NCBI GenBank assembly: GCA_030765065.1
Contig: CM060975.1
Location: forward strand, 198,928,507-198,992,506
Source: Deroplatys truncata
Lineage: Eukaryota; Arthropoda; Insecta; Mantodea; Mantidae
DNA: 64,000 bases
Direction of reading: 5' to 3'
Of this stretch, positions 33,531-58,599 are shown one piece after another. The first letter of the stretch is position 1. Each line of letters starts with the position of its first letter. The translations under genes and the position numbers were made by a program. A model generated the notes under the pieces. That model was not told the origin of the DNA, ran no database searches, and saw only the letters and a program-made list of their open reading frames with translations.

Positions 33531-34741
33531 ATGCCTAAGAACAAATCTACCAAAAGTGCATTAATAAGAACATAAATTTCGAATAACCAGTCTTATACAA
33601 CAGATGGGAAAATAATCCTCAGGTCTGCAGTAAAGACATAAGCTTTTTACCGTATTTTATGTCCTACCATGTATGTTAACTACCGCGATTAATTTTACCG
33701 TATGACTTTTTATTCTATCTGAAAATAATCTCTAATATGTTTGATGCATTTACTTTACTTACATAGCCCATGCCCTCAAAAAGAGAATCCCAGTTTGGAA
33801 TGTACTTGAAAATACAACAATGAAGTCATTTTTAAAAAAAGTATTGCAGAGAAAGAATACCCTCCGAATCGACACTTAGAAACACTTTTCTTGAGATGGT
33901 GTATGAATCACAGTTGAATGAAATAAGGTCAGAAATAGGAGATTCCTACATCTGGATTTCCGTAGATGAAACCACAGACGCCCTGGGGCAAAATATAGCA
34001 AATTTAATTGTAACGAAATTAGATGAAGAAAATTATGGAAATTCACATTTGACTTGTTCGAAGGTGTTGGAGAAAACTAATGCACTTGCATACTTCGTAA
34101 ACTCCGGACTAAAGTACTGTATCCGAATGGTATAAAGAATGAAAGGGTGTTGTTACTGTACACTGATGCAGCACCATATATGATAGCAGTTGGGAAGCTT
34201 TTGAAGGTATTTTTTTTAGCATTTAACACGCGTTACTTGTCTGGCTCATGCACTTCATCGAGTAGCAGAGGAGGTTCAAAACCAGTTCCCCAAAATCAAT
34301 GATTTAATATACTCCATAAAGCAAGTATTTTTAAAGTCAAATTGTAGAATTGCAGCTTTCAAAGAAAGATGTACCAATCTGCATTTGCCACCAGCACCTA
34401 TTTTGACAAGATGAGGTACGTGACTGCAGGCTGTGAAGTATTACAGTGAGAACGTTGACAGTGTTGAAGAGGTTGTAAATAGGTTTTCGGAAGAAGAATC
34501 GTAGTGTCATATATTCGCGCTAATTTCACATTTTTGGAAGATACTATAGAGCAATTAGAATCATCAAAGCTCAATCTCACGCAATCAATCATATTATGTA
34601 CAAGAGTAGAAAGTCAGTTAACCAAAGCTGTTGGGAAAATTGTTTCCAAAAACTGGTGCTCGCCAAAAATCCTAGATATACGGTTCTGAAAGGAGTATCA
34701 GATATTTTAAGCGAACGTGAGACAGATCTTCCTACAGGATT
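33531..34741 (+). pseudogene. hAT-family transposase pseudogene, 5' part (interrupted by the palindromic element)
   Basis: From ATG at 33531 the translation starts MPKNKSTKSALIRT, with stops soon after. The RNase H-like core starts around 33890 (SYIWISVDETTDALGQNIAN: the Asp-Glu of SVDETTD is the first catalytic region). It continues in shifted frames with TCLAHALHRVAEEVQNQFPK (about 34240, the CxxH-type motif of hAT) and ends in frame at 34741 just at the insertion point. Several stops and shifts are independent of the insertion. The C terminus is at 45727-45898. Confidence 0.8.
34736..34741 (+). repeat. 6-bp target site duplication, left copy
   Basis: AGGATT directly precedes the left terminus of the palindromic element. 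The identical AGGATT follows the right terminus at 45721-45726. Confidence 0.9.
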
Positions 34742-37700
34742 AGTAGGTAAATATAGAGAGAGCTGGCGCAGTTTTTTGCGTTTATATGGGAAACGATAGG
34801 GAAAACGAGAGTAGATGCGACGGTTCAAGGAGGAAAATGCGTTTATATGGGCGAAATAGGGAATACGAGGGTTGATGCTAGGCTAGACAGTGGTAGAAGG
34901 AGGGGGAATGCGGTTTATATGAGACAGATAGGGAATACGTGGAGAGGTGCTAGGCTAGACGGAGGCTGAGGAGTAGAGTATGGTTTATATGAAAGGTATA
35001 GGAAAACGAGGAGGGGTGTTAGGCTAGACAGAGTTGAAGGGTAGAGCATGTCTTGTATATGAGAGGGGTAGGGAACAGGAGCAGGGGTGTTAGGCTAGGC
35101 AGAGGTCAAGAAGTAGAGTATGGTTTATATGAAAGGTATAGGAAAACGAGGAGGGGTGTTAGGCTAGACAGAGTTGAAGGGCAGAGCATGTCTTGTATAT
35201 GAGAGAGGTAGGGAACAGGAGCAGGGGTGTTAGGCTAGGCAGAGGTCAAGAAGTAGAGTATGGTTTATATGAAAGGTATAGGAAAACGAGGAGGGGTGTT
35301 AGGCTAGACAGATTTGAAGGGCAGAGCATGTCTTGTATATGAGAGAGGTAGGGAACAGGAGCAGGGGTGTTAGGCTAGGCAGAGGTCAAGAAGTAGAGTA
35401 TGGTTTATATGAAAGGTATAGGAAAACGAGGAGGGGTGTTAGGCTAGACAGAGTTGAAGGGCAGAGCATGTCTTGTATATGAGAGAGGTAGGGAACAGGA
35501 GCAGGGGTGTTAGGCTAGGCAAAGGTCAAGAAGTAGAGTAGGGTTTATATGAAAGGTATAGGAAAACGAGGAGGGGTGTTAGGCTACACAGAGTTGAAGG
35601 GCAGAGAATGTCTTGTATATGAGAGAGGTAGGGAACAGGAGCAGTGGTGTTAGGCCAGGCAGAGGTCAAGAAGTAGAGTATGGTTTATATGAAAGGTATA
35701 GGAAAACGAGGAGGGGTGTTAGGCTAGACAGAGTTGAAGGGCAGAGCATGTCTTGTATATGAGAGAGGTAGGGAACAGGAGCAGGGGTGTTAGGCTAGGC
35801 AGAGGTCAAGAAGTAGAGTATGGTTTATATGAAAGGTATAGGAAAACGAGGAGGGGTGTTAGGCTTGACAGAGTTGAAGGGCAGAGCATGTCTTGTATAT
35901 GAGAGAGGTAGGGAACAGGAGCAGGGGTGTTAGGCTAGATAGAGGTCAAGAAGTAGAGTATGGTTTATATGAATGGTATAGGAAAACGAGGTGGACTGTT
36001 AGGCTAGACAGGTAGTAGGTAACTATAGAGAGAGCTGGCGCAGTTTTTTGCGTTTATATGGGAAAGCATAGGGAAAACGAGGGTAGATGCGACGGTTCAA
36101 GGAGGAAAATGCGTTTATATGGACGAAATAGGGAATATGAGTGTTGATGCTAGGCTAGACAGTGGTAGAAGGAGGGTGAATGCGGTTTATATGAGACAGA
36201 TAGGGAATACGTGGAGAGGTGCTAGGCTACACGGAGGCTGAGGAGTAGAGTATGGTTTATATGAAAGGTATAGGAAAACGAGGAGGGGTGTTAGGCTAGA
36301 CAGAGTTGAAGGGTAGAGCATGTCTTGTATATGAGAGGGGTAGGGAACAGGAGCAGGGGTGTTAGGCTAGGCAGAGGTCAAGAAGTAAAGTATGGTTTAT
36401 ATGAAAGGTATAGGAAAACGAGGAGGGGTGTTAGGCTAGACAGAGTTGAAGGGCAGAGCATGTCTTGTATATGAGAGAGGTAGGGAACAGGAGCAGGGGT
36501 GTTAGGCTAGGCAGAGGTCAAGAAGTAGAGTATGGTTTATATGAAAGGTATAGGAAAACGAGGAGGGGTGTTAGGCTAGACAGAGTTGAAGGGCAGAGCA
36601 TGTCTTGTATATGAGAGAGGTAGGAAACAGGAGCAGGGGTGTTAGGCTAGGCAGAGGTCAAGAAGTAGAGTATGGTTTATATGAAAGGTATAGGAAAACG
36701 AGCAGGGGTGTTAGGCTAGACAGAGTTGAAGGGCAGAGCATGTCTTGTATATGAGAGAGGTAGGGAACAGGAGCAGGGGTGTTAGGCTAGGCAGAGGTCA
36801 AGAAGTAGAGTAGGGTTTATATGAAAGGTATAGGAAAACGAGGAGGGGTGTTAGGCTAGACAGAGTTGAAGGGCAGAGAATGTCTTGTATATGAGAGAGG
36901 TAGGGAACAGGAGCAGTGGTGTTAGGCTAGGCAGAGGTCAAGAAGTAGAGTATGGTTTATATGAAAGTTATAGGAAAACGAGGAGGGGTGTTAGGCTAGA
37001 CAGAGTTGAAGGGCAGAGCATGTCTTGTATATGAGAGAGGTAGGGAACAGGAGCAGGGGTGTTAGGCTAGGCAGAGGTCAAGAAGTAGAGTATGGTTTAT
37101 ATGAAAGGTATAGGAAAACGAGGAGGGGTGTTAGGCTAGACAGAGTTGAAGGGCAGAGCATGTCTTGTATATGAGAGAGGTAGGGAACAGGAGCAGGGGT
37201 GTTAGGCTAGGCAGAGGTCAAGAAGTAGAGTATGGTTTATATGAAAGGTATAGGAAAACGAGGAGGGGTGTTAGGCTAGACAGAGTTGAAGGGCAGAGCA
37301 TGTCTTGTATATGAGAGAGGTAGGGAACAGGAGCAGGGGTGTTAGGCTAGATAGAGGTCAAGAAGTAGAGTATGGTTTATATGAATGGTATAGGAAAACG
37401 AGGTGGACTCTTAGGCTAGACAGGTAGTAGGTAAATATAGAGAGAGCTGGCGCAGTTTTTTGCGTTTATATGGGAAAGGATAGGGAAAACGAGGGTAGAT
37501 GCGACGGTTCAAGGAGGAAAATGCGTTTATATGGACGAAATAGGGAATACGAGTGTTGATGCTAGGCTAGACAGTGGTAGAAGGAGGGTGAATGCGGTTT
37601 ATATGAGACAGATAGGGAATACGTGGAGAGGTGCTAGGCTAGACGGAGGCTGAGGAGTAGAGTATGGTTTATATGAAAGGTATAGGAAAACGAGGAGGGG

Positions 37701-39470
37701 TGTTAGGCTAGACAGAGTTGAAGGGTAGAGCATGTCTTGTATATGAGAGGGGTAGGGAACAGGAGCAGGGGTGTTTGGCTAGACAGAGGTCAAGAAGTAG
37801 AGTAGGGTTTATATGAAGGGTATAGGAAAACGAGGAGGGGTGTTAGGCTAGACAGAGTTGAAGGGCAGAGCATGTCTTGTATATGAGAGAGGTAGGGAAC
37901 AGGAGCAGGGGTGTTAGGCTAGGCAGAGGTCAAGAAGTAGAGTATGGTTTATATGATAGGTATAGGAAAACGAGGAGGGGTGTTAGGCTAGACAGAGTTG
38001 AAGGGCAGAGCATGTCTTGTATATGAGAGAGGTAGGGAACAGGAGCAGGGGTGTTAGGCTAGGCAGAGGTCAAGAAGTAGAGTAGGGTTTATATGAAAGG
38101 TATAGGAAAACGAGGAGGTGTGTTAGGCTAGACAGAGTTGAAGGGCAGAGCATGTCTTGTATATGAGAGAGGTAGGGAACAGGAGCAGGGGTATTAGGCT
38201 AGGCAGAGGTCAAGAAGTAGTGTATGGTTTATATGAAAGGTATAGGAAAACGAGGAGGGGTGTTAGGCTAGACAGAGTTGAAGGGCAGAGCATGTCTTGT
38301 ATATGAGAGAGGTAGGGAACAGGAGCAGGGGTGTTAGGCTAGGCAGAGGTCAAGAAGGAGAGTATGGTTTATATGAAAGGTATAGGAAAACGAGGAGGGG
38401 TGTTAGGCTAGACAGAGTTGAAGGGCAGAGTATGTCTTGTATATGAGAGAGGTAGGGAACAGGAGCAGGGGTGTTAGGCTAGGCAGAGGTCAAGAGGTAG
38501 AGTATGGTTTATATGAAAGGTATAGGAAAACGAGGTGGACTGTTAGGCTAGACAGAGTTGAAGGGTAGAGTATGTCCTTTATATGAGAGAGGTTGGGAAC
38601 AGGAGGAGGGGTGTTAGGTTAGGAGAATTGAGTATGTGTTTATATAGAGAGACGAGAAAACGGAGAGAGATCCTATGCTAGAATAGACAGGTGTTAAAGT
38701 TAGGTTAGATAGGAAACCAAGGAGTGATACTCAGCTAGAGGGGGGGCAGGGGGAATGCGCTTTATGAGAGGTAGGGGATACGGGTAGTGGTGTTAGGCTA
38801 GACAGAGATTGAGAGTAGAGTAGGCGTTTATATGTATGAGAAGTATAGAACAGGAGGAGGGGTGTTAGGCTAGACACAGGCTGAGAGTAGAGTATGCGTT
38901 TATATGTATGAGAGGTATAGGAGCAGGAGGAGAGGCGCTAGGCTAGACAGAGGTTGAGTAGAGTATGGGTTATATGAGAGAGGTAGGGAACAAGAGGAGA
39001 GGTGTTAGGCTAGACAGAGGGTTAGGAGTAGAGTATGGTTTATATGAGAAATATAGGAAAAACGAGGCGAGGTTTTAGGCTAGACAGAGGTCGAGGAGTA
39101 GAGTATGGCTTATATGAGAGGTATAGGAAAACGCGGGAGCTATTAGCTTAGGAGAATTGAGTATGTGTTTATAAGGAGAGATGAGAAAACGGAAAGAGAT
39201 CCTATGCTAGGATAGACAGGTGTTAAAGTTAGGTTAGATAGCAAACCAAGGAGTGATACTCAGCAAGAGAAGGGCAGTAGGGAATGCGCTTTATGAGAGG
39301 TAGGGGATACGGGGAGCGGTGTTAGGCTAGACAGAGGTAGAGGGGTAGAGTATGGTTTATATGAGAGGTATAGGGAAACGAGGAGAGTCGGTAGGCTAGA
39401 CAGATAGTGAAGCAGTAGGAATATGGACTTATATACAGTAGATATAGGGAATAGGAGGGGAGGGGCTAGA
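34742..39470 (+). repeat. Left-arm satellite, 140-bp dimer units in three higher-order blocks
   Basis: The core (about 34950-38640) is a head-to-tail array with a 140-bp period (for example 'aagtagagta' at 35111, 35251 and 35391). Each unit is a dimer of ~70-bp halves sharing 'gtgttaggctag'. The element terminus itself ('gtaggtaa.tatagagagagctggcgcag') recurs at about 36014 and 37424, so the array is organised as three higher-order blocks of about 1.27 and 1.41 kb plus a distal part. Inner, more diverged units run to 39470. Confidence 0.9.
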
Positions 39471-39559
39471 CTTTGAAAGCGACTTTAGACGTGAACTTAG
39501 TGGCAAACTGTTTCATGTTAATGTTCTAGACATGCCCATCACGTAACCCATTCAGGGAA

Positions 39560-40004
39560 AAGGTGGCTGCTCAGGGAAAAATGTGACCAGCAAAGGGAAA
39601 AAGGTGACCAGCAAAGGGAAAAATGTGACCAGCAAAGGAAAAAGGTGACCAGCAAAGGAAAAAAGGTGACCAGCAAAGGGAAAAAGGTGACCAGCAAAGG
39701 GAAAAACGTGGCCAGCAAAGGGAAAAAGGTGACCAGCAAAGGGAAAAATGTGACCAGCAAAGGGAAAAATGTGACCAGCAAAGGAAAAAACGTGACCAGC
39801 AAAGGGAAAAAAGGTGACCAGTAAAGGGAAAAAGGTGACCAGCAAAGGGAAAAAGGTGACCAGTAAAGGGAAAAATGTGATCAGCAACGGGAAAAAAGGT
39901 GACCAGCAAAGGGAAAAAGGTGACCAGCAAAGGGAAAAAAGGTGATCAGCAAAGGGAAAAATGTGACCAGCAACGGGAAAAAGGTGACCAGCAAAGGGAA
40001 AAGC
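39560..40004 (-). repeat. 21-bp minisatellite, left arm
   Basis: About 21 head-to-tail copies of a 20-22-bp unit, consensus GTGACCAGCAAAGGGAAAAA, with small length variation in the A-run. It is the reverse complement of the array at 43138-43575. Because 21 is a multiple of three it is open in all minus-strand frames, giving repetitive 'LLVTFFP' translations that I do not regard as a protein. Confidence 0.9.
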
Positions 40005-40683
40005 TAACACACTCACACTAGCAGGTAAGTAATTCAGTTAGTATCATAGGGTAGGACAGATCCTGGGAAGCGGATATAGCATTGTTCCGTATGATGTTAC
40101 AGGTAATTCAGAGAGTGTCGTAGGTATTTAGGATATTGCAAGTAACATAGGTGTTTAGAGTCATTCAGCTAGTATCACAAGAGGCTAGTTTCCAGGGGCA
40201 GAACGTATCATAGATACATATTTTTCACAGGCAATTCAGCTAGTATCACAGGTATTTAAGTCATTTTAACAAGTAATTCAACTAGTATCACAGCTACTCA
40301 TGGTAATATAGAGAGTAATTAGATTATAAACATTTCTCATCCAACGTTACAACAATTTATATACTTTTTCTAAATCTTACAAACTTATTATATGTTAAAC
40401 AGTTATTGTACGATGCGGAGAGGGATAAACTGCATATTGGTTCACAAATTGAAAATCTTTACCTCAACATACCTTTATTTTAGTTCGTTGTAGATGTCTC
40501 TCCCCTTTTATCTAGGCTTGAGACTAGCACTAGGATTGCTCCTAATGGCAGGGTTACCACCTTCCCTTCCATCTTCTTCTTTCTTCATCAGACGTCTGCT
40601 AGTTGCATACACAGCACACGGATAAACTTCATTTTTAAGATTGTAGACTCACGAGAAAATCTTCATCTTCGACTTACATTCTC
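40005..40683. other. Non-coding block of left arm
   Basis: Unique-looking sequence with several 'cagctagtatcacag'-type short repeats (40090-40310). It is mirrored at 42499-43137 in the right arm at very high identity. Confidence 0.8.
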
Positions 40684-41786
40684 TTAAGCACTGTTTATAA
40701 TACTGTAATGTCCATATGCATAGGTAGTTATTCCATCCTCAGCAATAATTCTTTTATCATCAAAGGGATTCAATGCAATTTTATTCACTTGCACTGTGGT
40801 AACAGCATGCTTTCGTGATAGGATTAGATTCATGGGCGTTCTGATGATTTCACAGGTTTTAAGACAGTCTGTATAGCTGTCAAACGAAATGTACTGCTTA
40901 ATAGCGCTACGTTTTATACCTTTAATCTTTTTTATCATTGAGCCTTGAATATCTAAGACATACATCTTAGGCCGTAGTCCAACAAAGCGTAGGATGATTT
41001 TGCTATTAGCCTCATCTTTAAATTTTCCCAATACCTTCTTGTTCTGAGTAGAGTGGCATATATGATTGACAGATGCTCAAGAAAACGTAGCTTGTCCTGG
41101 TACACATCTTCAGTTGTTACACGATGAATGAATGAATCAGTGTCCATATACATAAGCTTCTGGTTTTCAGTTCCATAATAAGGCAACAACACGTCGTAAT
41201 AGTAGTTATACATTAATGTCTTGGAGATGTCCAACACACTCATTCCAATGTATATAGGCTTGTTGAACACAATCTGACGAGAGGCCATATGTACAGCAGC
41301 TGGATTAGCAGCATATATCGTCGTGTCGATAAACGTAGGCTTGGCGATCAACTTTTCTAGAGTCTTCTCATTGGTCACCAGTCGTATATCCACAGGGCTG
41401 CGCAGGTTCTCCGTAGTTTTTCCAAACATAGCGTTGTTAAAGAGCTTATAGAGATCCTTCTCGAAGTCATTTGCAGCTTGTTGTCGTAGCCTGTTGTTAA
41501 ATTCCACATAAGGTTTCAACCACCGAGACTGTCGGAATTGTAGCACACGATGGATTTTTGTTAGTCGTAGTCCATGACTAAGAGCCTGCTTCAAAGCCAT
41601 GTAATGCACTACATACTTCTTTCGAGGTCCAAGATGAGGTATCAGTTTCTTTGTAGATGCTTCCAATGGCTTCATACACTCAGGCAGGAAAGGTAGATCG
41701 TTGTGTAGATCGTGAAGTTCTGCAGGATATTCGATATCAACTTCTAATATGTACCCATGAGGATCATGAGAAAAGTTGATCGCCAA
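40684..41786 (-). pseudogene. Type B DNA polymerase (protein-primed class), 3' half, left copy, frameshifted
   Basis: Minus-strand coding from the loop outward. 41786-41359 (loop) encodes the segment GYILEVDIEYP...LHDLHNDLPFLPE onward through KYVVHYMALKQALSHGL, then motif B (KLFNNAMFGKTTEN, about 41460-41420). In the arm it gives motif C (YMDTDS, about 41150). The exonuclease domain and motif A are absent, so no complete polymerase is encoded. Relative to the right copy a 19-bp deletion near 41075, flanked by CTG, shifts the frame, and a single-base loss near 40710 spoils the last residues. The family is the protein-primed polymerase of Polintons and related linear elements. Confidence 0.85.
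41359..41768 (-). other. Single-copy loop at the centre of the palindrome
   Basis: These ~410 bp have no mirror copy. They encode the polymerase segment that precedes the arms, including motif B. At the right edge the sequence turns round at 'agaaaagttgatcgccaa' (41769-41786), the exact reverse complement of 41341-41358. An in-frame TGA (41767-41769) at the turn closes the frame of the right copy. Confidence 0.85.
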
Positions 41787-42498
41787 GCCTACGTTTATCG
41801 ACAGGACGATATATGCTGCTAATCCAGCTGCTGTACATATGGCCTCTCGTCAGATTGTGTTCAACAAGCCTATATACATTGGAATGAGTGTGTTGGACAT
41901 CTCCAAGACATTAATGTATAACTACTATTACGACGTGTTGTTGCCTTATTATGGAACTGAAAACCAGAAGCTTATGTATATGGACACTGATTCATTCATT
42001 CATCGTGTAACAACTGAAGATGTGTACCAGGACAAGCTACGTTTTCTTGAGCATCTGGATACAGCTAATTACCCTGTCAATCATATATGCCACTCTACTC
42101 AGAACAAGAAGGTATTGGGAAAATTTAAAGATGAGGCTAATAGCAAAATCATCCTACGCTTTGTTGGACTACGGCCTAAGATGTATGCCTTAGATATTCT
42201 AGGCTCAATGATAAAAAAGATTAAAGGTATAAAACGTAGCGCTATTAAGCAGTACATTTCGTTTGACAGCTATACAGACTGTCTTAAAACCTGTGAAATC
42301 ATCAGAACGCCCATGAATCTAATCCTATCACGAAAGCATGCTGTTACCACAGTGCAAGTGAATAAAATTGCATTGAATCCCTTTGATGATAAAAGAATTA
42401 TTGCTGAGGATGGAATAACTACCTATGCATATGGATATTTACAGTATTACAAACAGTGCTTAAGAGAATTTAAGTCGAAGATGAAGATTTTCTCGTGA
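41770..42498 (+). pseudogene. Type B DNA polymerase 3' fragment, right copy, uninterrupted to its stop
   Basis: Plus-strand frame of about 240 residues. It starts at the turn of the palindrome (no natural start codon) at LIAKPTFID. It contains the thumb-proximal segment FNKPIYIGMSVLDISKTLMY, motif C YMDTDS (about 41980), a KVLGKFKDE block and the C terminus ending KMKIFS before TGA. It lacks the exonuclease domain, motif A and motif B, so it cannot be an active polymerase by itself. Unlike the left copy it has no frameshift. Confidence 0.85.
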
Positions 42499-43137
42499 GT
42501 CTACAATCTTAAAAATGAAGTTTATCCGTGTGCTGTGTATGCAACTAGCAGACGTCTGATGAAGAAAGAAGAAGATGGAAGGGAAGGTGGTAACCCTGCC
42601 ATTAGGAGCAATCCTAGTGCTAGTCTCAAGCCTAGATAAAAGGGGAGAGACATCTACAACGAACTAAAATAAAGGTATGTTGAGGTAAAGATTTTCAATT
42701 TGTGAACCAATATGCAGTTTATCCCTCTCCGCATTGTACAATAACTGTTTAACATATAATAAGTTTGTAAGATTTAGAAAAAGTATATAAATTGTTGTAA
42801 CGTTGGATGAGAAATGTTTATAATCTAATTACTCTCTATATTACCATGAGTAGCTGTGATACTAGTTGAATTACTTGTTAAAATGACTTAAATACCTGTG
42901 ATACTAGCTGAATTGCCTGTGAAAAATATGTATCTATGATACGTTCTGCCCCTGGAAATTAGCCTCTTGTGATACTAGCTGAGTGACTCTAAACACCTAT
43001 GTTACTTGCATTATCCTAAATACCTACGACACTCTCTGAATTACCTGTAACATCATACGGAACTATGCTATATCCGCTTCCCAGGATCTGTCCTACCCTA
43101 TGATACTAACTAAATTACTTACCTGCTAGTGTGAGTG
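42499..43137. other. Non-coding block of right arm
   Basis: Mirror of 40005-40683, differing by scattered substitutions. Confidence 0.8.
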
Positions 43138-43575
43138 GGTTAGCTTTTCCCTTTGCTGGTCACCTTTTTCCCGTTGCTGGTCACATTTTTCCCTTTGCTG
43201 ATCACCTTTTTTCCCTTTGCTGGTCACCTTTTTTCCTTTGCTGGTCACCTTTTTCCCTTTGCTGGTCACCTTTTTTCCCGTTGCTGATCACATTTTTCCC
43301 TTTACTGGTCACCTTTTTCCCTTTGCTGGTCACCTTTTTCCCTTTGCTGGTCACCTTTTTTCCCTTTGCTGGTCACCTTTTTCCCTTTGCTGGTCACGTT
43401 TTTCCCTTTACTGGTCACATTTTTCCCTTTGCTGGTCACCTTTTTCCCTTTGCTGGTCACGTTTTTCCCTTTGCTGATCACCTTTTTCCCTTTGCTGGTC
43501 ACCTTTTTTCCTTTGCTGGTCACCTTTTTCCTTTGCTGGTCACATTTTTCCCTTTGCTGGTCACATTTTTCCCTG
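43138..43575 (+). repeat. 21-bp minisatellite, right arm
   Basis: Inverted counterpart of 39560-40004 (unit TTTTTCCCTTTGCTGGTCAC), with a slightly different number and order of unit variants. Frames through it are repetitive artefacts. Confidence 0.9.
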
Positions 43576-43679
43576 AGCAGCCACCTTTTCCCTGAATGGG
43601 TTACGTGATGGGCATGTCTAGAACATTAACATGAAACAGTTTGCCACTAAGTTCACGTCTAAAGTCGCTTTCAAAGTCT

Positions 43680-45720
43680 AGCCCCTTCCCTCCTATTCCC
43701 TATCTCTCCTGTATATAAGTCCATATTCCTACTGCTTCACTATCTGTCTAGCCTACCGACTCTCCTCGTTTCCCTATACCTCTCATATAAACCATACTCT
43801 ACCCCTCTACCTCTGTCTAGCCTAACACCGCTCCCCGTATCCCCTACCTCTCATAAAGCGCATTCCCTCCTGCCCTTCTCTTACTGAGTATCACTCCTTG
43901 GTTTGCTATCTAACCTAACCTTAACACCTGTCTATCCTAGCATAGGATCTCTTTCCGTTTTCTCATCTCTCCTTATAAACACATACTCAATTCTCCTAAG
44001 CTAATAGATCCCCGCGTTTTCCTATACCTCTCATATAAGCCATACTCTACTCCTCGACCTCTGTCTAGCCTAAAACCTCGCCTCGTTTTTCCTATATTTC
44101 TCATATAAACCTTACTCTACTCCTAACCCTCTGTCTAGCCTAAAACCTCTCCTCCTGTTCCCTACCTCTCTCATATAACCCATACTCTACTCAACCTCTG
44201 TCTAGCCTAGCGCCTCTCCTCCTGATCCTATACCTCTCATACATATAAACCCATACTCTACACTCAGCCTGTCTAGCCTAACACCCCTCCTCCTGTTCTA
44301 TACTTCTCATACATATAAACGCCTACTCTACTCTCAACCTCTGTCTAGCCTAACACCACTGCCAGTATCCCCTACCTCTCATAAAGCGCATTCCTCCTGC
44401 CCCCCCTCTAGCTGAGTATCACTCCTTGGTTTCCTATCTAACCTAACTTTAACACCTGTCTATTCTAGCATAGGATCTCTCTCCGTTTTCTCGTCTCTCC
44501 TTATAAACACATACTCAATTCTCCTAACCTAACACCCCTCCTCCTGTTCCCAACCTCTCTCATATAAAGGACATACTCTACCCTTCAACTCTGTCTAACC
44601 TAACAGTCCACCTCGTTTTCCTATACCATTCATATAAACCATACTCTAGTTCTTGACCTCTATCTAGCCTAACACCCCTGCTCCTGTTCCCTACCTCTCT
44701 CATATACAAGACATGCTCTGCCCTTCAACTATGTCTAGCCTAACACCCCTCCTCGTTTTCCTATACCTTTCATATAAACCATACTCTACTTCTTGACCTC
44801 TGCCTAGCCTAACACCCCTGCTCCTGTTCCCTACCTCTTTCATATACAAGACATGCTCTGCCCTTCAACTCTGTCTAGCCTAACACCCCTCCTCGTTTTC
44901 CTATACCTTTCATATAAACCATACTCTACTTCTTGACCTCTGCCTAGCCTAACACCCCTGCTCCTGTTCCCTACCTCTCTCATATACAAGACATGCTCTG
45001 CCCTTCAACTCTGTCTAGCCTAACACCCCTCCTCGTTTTCCTATACCTTTCATATAAACCCTACTCTACTTCTTGACCTCTGCCTAGCCTAACACCCCTG
45101 CTCCTGTTCCCTACCTCTCTCATATACAAGACATGCTCTGCCCTTCAACTCTGTCTAGCCTAACACCCCTCCTCGTTTTCCTATACCTTTCATATAAACC
45201 ATACTCTACTTCTTGACCTCTGCCTAGCCTAACACCCCTGCTCCTGTTCCCTACCTCTCTCATATACAAGACATGCTCTGCCCTTCAACTCTGTCTAGCC
45301 TAACACCCCTCCTCGTTTTCCTATACCTTTCATATAAACCCTACTCTACTTCTTGACCTCTGTCTAGCCTAACACCCCTGCTCCTGTTCCCTACCCCTCT
45401 CATATACAAGACATGCTCTACCCTTCAACTCTGTCTAGCCTAACACCCCTCCTCGTTTTCCTATACCTTTCATATAAACCATACTCTACTCCTCAGCCTC
45501 CGTCTAGCCTAGCACCTCTCCACGTATTCCCTATCTGTCTCATATAAACCGCATTCACCCTCCTTCTACCACTGTCTAGCCTAGCATTAACCCTCGTATT
45601 CCCTATTTCGCCCATATAAACGCATTTTCCTCCTTGAACCGTCGCATCTACCCTGGTTTTCCCTATCCTTTCCCATATAAACGCAAAAAACTGCGCCAGC
45701 TCTCTCTATATTTACCTACT
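43680..45720 (-). repeat. Right-arm satellite and right terminus
   Basis: Reverse-complement counterpart of the left satellite, with about six to seven 140-bp units (44540-45480) and only one copy of the terminus. The outermost ~240 bp correspond base for base to the left outermost block, apart from scattered changes. Confidence 0.9.
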
Positions 45721-45726
45721 AGGATT
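45721..45726 (+). repeat. 6-bp target site duplication, right copy
   Basis: AGGATT, identical to 34736-34741. Confidence 0.9.
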
Positions 45727-45898
45727 TAATCACCATATGGTTTCTCTTTTCAAATATGTTCCAGTCACCACCACAGACTTTGAGAGATCTTTTTCAGCAT
45801 TTAAGCTAATTCTGACCGACAGAAGGCATAAAATTACCCTACATCGTCTTGAAATGTTTCTTGTTATTCATTGTGGAGAAAATTACGGCCAAAAGTGA
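45727..45898 (+). pseudogene. hAT transposase pseudogene, C-terminal dimerisation domain
   Basis: Continues the hAT reading frame exactly where it was cut: with the element and one AGGATT removed, the codon phase matches. The segment reads FERSFSAFKLILTDRRHKIT, the signature of the hAT C-terminal dimerisation region, followed by a LEMFLVIHCGE-type end and a stop at 45896-45898. Confidence 0.85.
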
Positions 45899-48431: not shown

Positions 48432-48513
48432 GCTGCGGTGTCCGAGTGGTTAAGGAGTTGGACTTGAAATCCAATGGGTTCTACCCGCACAGGTTCGAAT
48501 CCTGTCCGCAGCG
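48432..48513 (+). tRNA. tRNA-Ser(UGA)
   Basis: 82 nt, type II. The acceptor stem GCTGCGG pairs with CCGCAGC with discriminator G. The D arm is TCCGAGTGGTTAAGGA, the anticodon stem-loop TTGGA-CTTGAAA-TCCAA has anticodon TGA, the long variable arm is TGGGTTCTACCCG, and the T arm is CAGGTTCGAATCCTG. A and B boxes are intact, and a TTTT terminator lies within 10 nt downstream. No intron and no encoded CCA, as expected for a eukaryotic nuclear gene. It decodes UCA/UCN serine codons. Confidence 0.95.
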
Positions 48514-48849
48514 CAAAAATTTTAATCTACGTCCTTCGTTTCGATAGAAATTCTACTTACCTCCAGTGTTAAAACGAGAACATTCAATGTGAAACTATTG
48601 TAAATAGAGGCTTCGTGGCACATTCAACTATATCCGAATACAACTCGAAGAAAAGCTGTTTTTATTGTACAATCAATTACTAATTTTTTTTAATAAATAT
48701 GTTTTCCTTTCAGTTTTAAATGTGCTATTTAATCAAAGTAAATTTCAGAAACTTAGTATTCTGTGAAATGCAAGTAAAAGGTTTACAAAAATCTGATGTG
48801 TAATAATCAAACGACTTTCTCTGCCCATAAGGTTTATTAACATACCTAA
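48514..48849. other. Spacer
   Basis: AT-rich. Includes a scrap resembling the repeat A end ('aaaatctgatgtgtaataatc', about 48789). Nothing else. Confidence 0.4.
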
Positions 48850-58208: not shown

Positions 58209-58290
58209 GCTGCGGTGTACGAGAGGTTAAGGAGTTGGACTCGAAATCCAATGGGTTCTACCCGCACAGGTTCGAATCCTGTCCGCAGCG
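58209..58290 (+). tRNA. tRNA-Ser(CGA)
   Basis: 82 nt, same scaffold as 48432-48513 with the anticodon loop CTCGAAA (anticodon CGA). The D arm reads GTACGAGAGGTTA, i.e. C-to-A and T-to-A changes against the canonical copy, which alter the A box. A TTTT lies about 5 nt downstream. First full member of the 155-bp tandem array. Confidence 0.88.
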
Positions 58291-58362
58291 TGACGTTTTC
58301 TTAACCTATGCTCTCTTGGAAAGTGTTGTTGAATAGCGTTGCTTTGCGGTCTTGTTCACACA

Positions 58363-58444
58363 GCTGCGGTGTCCGAGAGGTTAAGGAGTTGGACTCGAAA
58401 TCCAATGGGTTCTACCCGCACAGGTTCGAGTCCTGTCCGCAGCG
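58363..58444 (+). tRNA. tRNA-Ser(CGA)
   Basis: 82 nt with an intact cloverleaf and long variable arm, anticodon CGA. The T loop reads TTCGAGT rather than TTCGAAT, a permitted variant. TTTTT terminator just downstream. Second unit of the array. Confidence 0.92.
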
Positions 58445-58517
58445 TAATGTTTTTCTTAACCTATGCTCTCTTGGAAAGCGTTGTTGAATAGCGTTGCTTT
58501 GCGATCTTGTTCACACA

Positions 58518-58599
58518 GCTGCGGTGTCCGAGTGGTTAAGGAGTTGGACTTGAAATCCAATGGGTTCTACCCGCACAGGTTCGAATCCTGTCCGCAGCG
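58518..58599 (+). tRNA. tRNA-Ser(UGA)
   Basis: Identical over the 82 nt to the gene at 48432-48513, anticodon TGA. TTTTT terminator downstream. Third unit of the array. Confidence 0.94.

Follow-up and report, generated by a model that had tools for sequence, protein, structure and literature searches.

Palindromic, Polinton-derived elements in the genome of Deroplatys truncata and a possible hairpin route for their replication

Introduction

Snap-back or inverted-dimer defective genomes can arise in linear replicons that use protein priming, among them adenovirus and the yeast killer plasmids. A self-complementary genome, whose strand folds into a duplex on itself, is also found in self-complementary adeno-associated virus (scAAV), which depends on a rolling-hairpin Rep protein. 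The Polintons or Mavericks (class Polintoviricetes) resemble the elements described here in having a DNA_pol_B_2 polymerase, AG...CT termini, and 6-bp target-site duplications. They are 15-20 kb in size (PMC4028283), and end motifs have been described for vertebrate Polintons (PMC8097293). In the present work, a 64,000-nucleotide stretch of Deroplatys truncata DNA from contig CM060975.1, referred to below as the window, was found to contain a near-palindromic element of 10,979 bp with AG...CT ends (positions 34742-45720). We consider it probable that this element is a shortened copy from a multi-copy, palindromic, Polinton-derived family that would replicate by way of a hairpin.

The window element and the sister copies read have full lengths of 10.8-17.7 kb. 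They share with Polintons the DNA_pol_B_2-type polymerase (PolB), the 6-bp duplication, and terminal inverted repeats starting with AG. Unlike Polintons, they are palindromic with two PolB genes, and an rve integrase and the capsid, packaging ATPase, and protease genes were not found in the pieces read. The fold-back of a linear genome and the two equal, authentic ends are also seen in snap-back defective genomes; unlike these, the palindrome described here is multi-copy, integrated, the standard form among the copies read, and encodes a polymerase that is under selection. The family and scAAV both have self-complementary strands, whereas the family would rely on a protein-primed PolB instead of a rolling-hairpin Rep.

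Structure and integration of the window element

The element begins with AGTAGGT (from 34742) and ends with ACCTACT (to 45720), its terminal inverted repeat is perfect across 52 bp, and a perfect AGGATT flanks it on both sides. As for genes, only the 3' portion of one for a type B polymerase was recognised, and it is present in both arms. These features support the Polinton character assigned to the element in the original prediction, which had also described its halves as reverse complements. The palindrome and its 410-bp loop stand, but the arms are near-identical rather than identical: 40 substitutions were counted in 2,783 aligned bases (1.4%; 38526-41359 against its partner, a region that excludes most of the 140-bp satellite), and the left arm triplicates the terminus. 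This arm has three tandem terminus copies (34742, 36014, and 37426) and the right arm has one, so that the difference in arm length is mainly due to the threefold terminal block. The three block copies differ from one another by 1.5-3.5%, unlike block ends counted. With up to 3 mismatches allowed, the terminus pattern occurs four times in the window, always within the element, compared to 0.01 occurrences expected. Both the second and third left-arm copies are preceded by GACAGGT. A strong strand asymmetry was also observed, the inward strand from each terminus being ~70% purine (34742-39572 and 43575-45720).

The element interrupts a hAT-like pseudogene (DUF659, PF04937). When it is removed together with one AGGATT, the hAT/DUF659 frame is continuous and colinear across the junction, and five aligned relatives of the interrupted protein, the nearest being 62% identical, are uninterrupted at this point. 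The colinear frame obtained by joining the flanks therefore indicates that the element entered as one unit. It was integrated whole and has an authentic terminus at either end, as had been proposed. An inverted arrangement alone would also be compatible with two one-armed insertions that came to lie side by side by chance, or with an inverted duplication of host DNA. This explanation has a negligible probability, since the single clean empty site and the matching duplication exclude two separate insertions at the window locus, and the same design recurs at many unlinked loci. In view of the colinear empty site, an artefactual fold in the assembly is likewise very unlikely here.

A multi-copy palindromic family

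A DNA search of the host genome (4.29 Gb), in which the best 40 of 4,099 candidates were scored, gave at least 28 family loci by our count. The locus counts are lower bounds because only the best-scoring candidates were listed for each genome search. Both arms are seen at 13 of the 28 loci, including the window. The inner pieces of the 12 sister copies were all palindromic, six of them as one match across the inner 7-9 kb, and three of the 15 further loci were sampled, all of which turn round at a depth of ~4.4-4.6 kb. In total, a second arm was looked for by sequence at 17 loci, with the window counted, and 16 of these are palindromic. The remaining locus, C9:59.4M, had been a candidate for a further small-loop palindrome, which was rejected after 1.2 kb had been read.

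A search at the protein level, with a PolB-like protein from a dragonfly as query (best 35 of 27,992 candidates scored), added at least 23 loci with nearly equal scores, each having an open PolB frame of 1225 aa. By coordinates, 12 of these 23 form inverted PolB pairs, with equal mate scores in 11 of the 12, and their inner gaps recur at ~8.7 kb (6 loci), 4.19 kb (5 loci), and 2.9 kb (1 locus). The idea that the protein-search loci are a second, unrelated family was rejected for the one locus sampled, where 238 bp of a 240-bp sample align with the window PolB at 95% DNA identity. If all 23 protein-search loci are members, as is suggested by their near-equal scores, the family comprises at least 51 loci; 28 of these are palindromic (16 by sequence and 12 by paired coordinates), one is not, and the remaining 22 lie outside the examined set.

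Outer pieces were read for 10 sister copies. Nine of them, as had been expected of palindromic sister copies, are bounded by their own perfect and mutually different 6-bp duplications (GTTATG, AATGGG, CAAGGT, CAGTAT, GACGTG, AACGTA, CACAGT, CACATG, and CACGAT), which makes 10 of 11 copies with the window. Two related terminus types, AGTAGGTAAATATAG and AGTAGGTTATTTAGA, occur in the family; the exact window terminus had no match in IMG/VR. The tenth sister copy, C16:79.0M, has inverted host flanks in place of a duplication, and these are mutually reverse complementary over at least 3.2 kb (99.2%, then 97.9%), which could reflect either a chromosomal fold-back or an assembly strand switch. An assembly strand switch is also what an assembly artefact or a fold-back read would require, and the flanks of C16:79.0M are as it would leave them. 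As an explanation of the palindromes, however, such an artefact is extremely improbable given the different flanks with perfect duplications in the other copies, the differences of 0.02-1.4% between arms, the additional difference in satellite number between the window arms, and the empty site at the window locus.

Collectively, the palindrome is the standard form of the family among the copies examined and not a rare by-product. The class of fold-back Polinton derivatives envisaged in the original prediction is thus real. A conventional, non-palindromic parent was not found among the 17 loci examined by sequence and, as each genome search covered its best-scoring candidates only, may have been missed.

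Element centres and origin of the window loop

Five of the 13 elements turn round at a depth of ~4.5 kb, and four of these share a recognisable centre sequence. Two others, C2_237 and C3_138, turn at non-canonical depths, and their arm ends are separated by 18 and 24 bp. The simulated chance of finding two or more of eight non-canonical centres with arm ends within 24 bp is 0.003, when the ends are placed uniformly over 4.9 kb, and the two centres look like snap-back events. The other six elements, including the window, are uneven. In two of them (C16_451 and C4_157), one arm still reaches roughly to the canonical depth, the pattern expected after a one-sided deletion. The junctions show overlaps of 3 or 7 bp in three copies, or insertions of 1, 4, or 7 bases; other junction gaps are at least 23 bases, with a size that depends on the reference. 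Central loops range from less than 100 bp to 2,765 bp, compared to 410 bp in the window. Similarity between the two sides of the window junction is not above chance (P=0.54).

The window copy had been predicted to come from a conventional Polinton by one snap-back, the strand switching inside PolB at the 410-bp loop. In agreement with this, the left arm and the loop form a continuous PolB sequence of which the right arm is a reverse-complement copy, and C2_237 and C3_138 provide examples of what a snap-back would leave. The conventional parent required was not seen among the best-scoring candidates, however, and the sister copies read have deeper centres and are palindromic themselves. In addition, the window junction lacks microhomology or overlap and contains one extra base (41768, which mismatches four relatives read on through the junction). 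The five other uneven loops, two of which keep one arm at about canonical depth, also speak against it, and a single snap-back is accordingly judged unlikely. Given the deeper centres of the sister palindromes read, the window loop is explained more simply by an uneven deletion from the centre of a palindromic parent than by a fresh snap-back.

Polymerase gene and gene content

The window loop carries DIEYP and NNAMFGK, and YMDTDS is present in both arms; we take these to be PolB motifs A, B, and C, respectively. The left copy lacks 19 bp and 1 bp relative to the right copy and has lost its frame. The PolB fragment is up to 59% identical to relatives labelled Rhodnius, Halyomorpha, Lycorma, and ant, some of them annotated with PF03175. 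Since Pfam and PHROGs searches gave no PolB match for the window fragments, the family assignment rests on sister copies, in one of which a 987-aa PolB piece matches DNA_pol_B_2 (PF03175, E=7.8e-24). The same piece aligns over its full length with a 1230-aa protein at 53% identity. Of two PDB searches, the first gave no match and the second only one weak ribosomal-protein match, judged to be due to chance. In order, the sister PolB comprises a start that looks zinc-finger-like by eye, an endonuclease-VII-like stretch, and the DNA_pol_B_2 region. PolB is complete in many family copies, and the long copies are inverted dimers of 15-18 kb with two PolB genes each.

Frames of at least 150 aa were surveyed in the inner pieces of 12 copies and frames of at least 100 aa in the outer pieces of 10 copies. 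Besides PolB, the inner pieces contain only 172-aa antisense frames within PolB (three copies), and no further recognised gene was found in the outer pieces, in which the longer frames of two copies are translations of the 21-bp array or belong to a nested insertion. This insertion of ~1.8 kb, in the right arm of C7:153.8M (C7_153), has frames of 251 and 173 aa that are presumably transposase-like, as judged by eye from a motif rather than by a family search. Capsid, packaging ATPase, and protease genes were absent from both surveys, which shorter or broken genes would escape. Judged by frame length, no rve integrase gene is present in the family pieces read. In a search of the host genome for rve integrases (best 129 of 9,144 candidates scored), frames of ~309 aa were abundant and none of the matches fell inside a mapped element. 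At C72:159931-165772, two rve integrase frames lie inverted ~4.7 kb apart.

Two Polinton-like contigs from IMG/VR, L002 and L003, encode a PolB related to that of the family (41-45% identity in the best segments). Unlike the family members, each has one PolB together with other genes, and a large inverted repeat was not found in the parts compared. In L002, PolB lies beside genes for an rve integrase and an A32-like ATPase, which ties the family's kind of PolB to Polintons. These contigs bear on the possibility that the family arose from a Polinton with long terminal inverted repeats, in which kilobase-sized repeats first came to include PolB and the genes at the centre were lost afterwards. 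In favour of this, the canonical form may be viewed as a pair of terminal repeats that extend to the centre, and L002 is a distant relative that retains PolB with integrase and ATPase genes. An intermediate with unique central genes was nevertheless not seen in 12 inner regions and three partial ones, and neither distant relative has a large inverted repeat in the parts compared; this origin therefore appears quite improbable.

Among eight arms with open PolB frames (28 pairs), dN/dS is 0.12-0.31 in all 21 pairs with a dS of at least 0.09, as obtained by a simple counting method without significance test. PolB thus shows purifying selection. The low values imply that the polymerase was kept working in spreading lineages, unless this happened partly through unseen non-palindromic forms. 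The description of the element as non-autonomous holds in part: an integrase gene was not found in the pieces read, but many copies have a complete PolB, and PolB shows purifying selection.

Similarity between the arms of an element

A tree was built from 24 arms (~1 kb of each) that belong to 12 elements. Arms of one element group together in 12 of 12 cases, and four arm pairs are identical. The number of element label changes on the tree is 11, which is the minimum, compared to a mean of 19.7 after shuffling, and a value as low was obtained in none of 200 shuffles. Inner arm differences are 0.02-1.08% across sister elements. C7_179 and C3_138 carry lesions at mirrored positions of their two arms, and C2_237 has one mirrored stop and an additional frameshift in the left arm. 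Both arms of C12_119 show the same mosaic, with the outer part nearest one subfamily and the inner part nearest another. The outer-arm comparison excludes the right arm of C7_153, whose match was shorter than 350 bp.

The grouped arms and shared lesions fit equally well with the main rival to replication through a hairpin, namely gene conversion on the chromosome after integration, by which the arms of Y-chromosome palindromes are kept alike. In the window, differences between the arms are also sparser close to the centre (6/877) than in the more distant part (34/1906; Fisher p=0.025), as gene conversion could explain. On the other hand, the window arms still differ in satellite copy number, their terminal triplication is found on one side only, and the nested insertion in C7_153 is confined to one arm. 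Gene conversion is thus a serious alternative, although we regard it as the less probable cause of arm similarity.

A possible hairpin replication cycle

The standard form is an inverted dimer, consisting of an authentic terminus, satellite, outward-facing PolB, non-coding spacer, and short central loop, followed by the mirror image. From Polinton biology and the anatomy of the elements, we infer the following chain of events. The free element would be replicated by protein-primed strand displacement, and the displaced, self-complementary strand could then fold into a hairpin, the open end of which would constitute a complete duplex origin. Copying round the hairpin tip would restore the duplex palindrome, and mismatch repair within the hairpin could keep the arms alike. 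For integration, the finished duplex would depend on an rve-type integrase provided in trans, which would act at both ends and generate the 6-bp duplication, and the centres might occasionally be reset by snap-back or central deletion. Beyond the window locus, it is conceivable, with a probability that we place a little short of even, that such elements constitute a self-complementary class of Polintons, in which PolB-only, protein-primed hairpin replicons match their arms via the hairpin, use an integrase in trans, and form lineages of their own, including some with reset centres. The five loci with a common 4.19-kb inner gap are offered as an example of a reset-centre lineage.

Several observations weigh against the hairpin cycle and the family-wide palindrome. 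Some tree supports for arm pairs are below 90; by raw distance, the left arm of C6_64 and the right arm of C4_157 are nearer another copy than their mates, and the right arm of C6_64 and the left arm of C3_159 give ties. When the outer region is compared, each window arm has the other as its nearest relative by a narrow margin (6/644, against 8/644 and 8/650 to C4_157), and the arms of C2_237 are identical there to those of C16_451. The shared canonical depth and centre mean that a fresh fold-back is not needed in each cycle. No helper integrase was found among the host rve frames scored, which are at most 33% identical to the query, and the seven PolB pairs of low divergence (dS below 0.05) give dN/dS values from 0.23 to 1.18. 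Finally, C16:79.0M has inverted flanks where a duplication would be expected, and at C9:59.4M a PolB arm leads into a 72-bp inverted stub and then into unrelated sequence.

If the hairpin cycle is correct, the palindromes would record intermediates of Polinton replication, of which we know of no direct view, and their centres, arm identity, and duplications would allow the protein-primed strand-displacement model to be tested from genome sequence. It would also mean that a Polinton can lose all recognised genes except the polymerase and yet multiply. A full-text literature search found no description of palindromic Polintons among the titles listed, and its most specific queries returned nothing.

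Annotated features of the window

The features of the element and its insertion site are collected in Table 1.

Table 1. Coordinates of the palindromic element and of the interrupted pseudogene in the window.
Feature	Position	Strand	Remark
Left part of interrupted hAT-like (DUF659, PF04937) pseudogene	33838..34741	+	start approximate
Left target-site duplication AGGATT	34736..34741	+	
Left palindrome arm, 6,617 bp	34742..41358	+	
Left terminus AGTAGGTAAATATAGAGAGAG	34742..34762	+	tandem copies 36014-36034, 37426-37446
140-bp subterminal satellite, left arm	34916..38623	+	repeated terminal blocks included
70-bp satellite, left arm	38789..39129	+	
21-bp array, left arm	39573..40002	+	
PolB fragment frame	40953..41849	-	right-arm edge, then loop (motifs A, B), then left arm (motif C); ends after 19-bp gap
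Unpaired loop, 410 bp, PolB sequence	41359..41768	.	
Right palindrome arm, 3,952 bp	41769..45720	+	
PolB C-terminal fragment, 242 aa, right arm	41770..42498	+	open to stop
21-bp array, right arm	43145..43574	+	
140-bp satellite, right arm	44523..45546	+	
Right terminus	45700..45720	-	
Right target-site duplication AGGATT	45721..45726	+	
Right part (C-terminus) of interrupted hAT-like (DUF659, PF04937) pseudogene	45727..45898	+	

Outside the element, the window contains four tRNA-Ser genes (48432-48514 and 58209-58599), three of which lie in a 155-bp tandem array.

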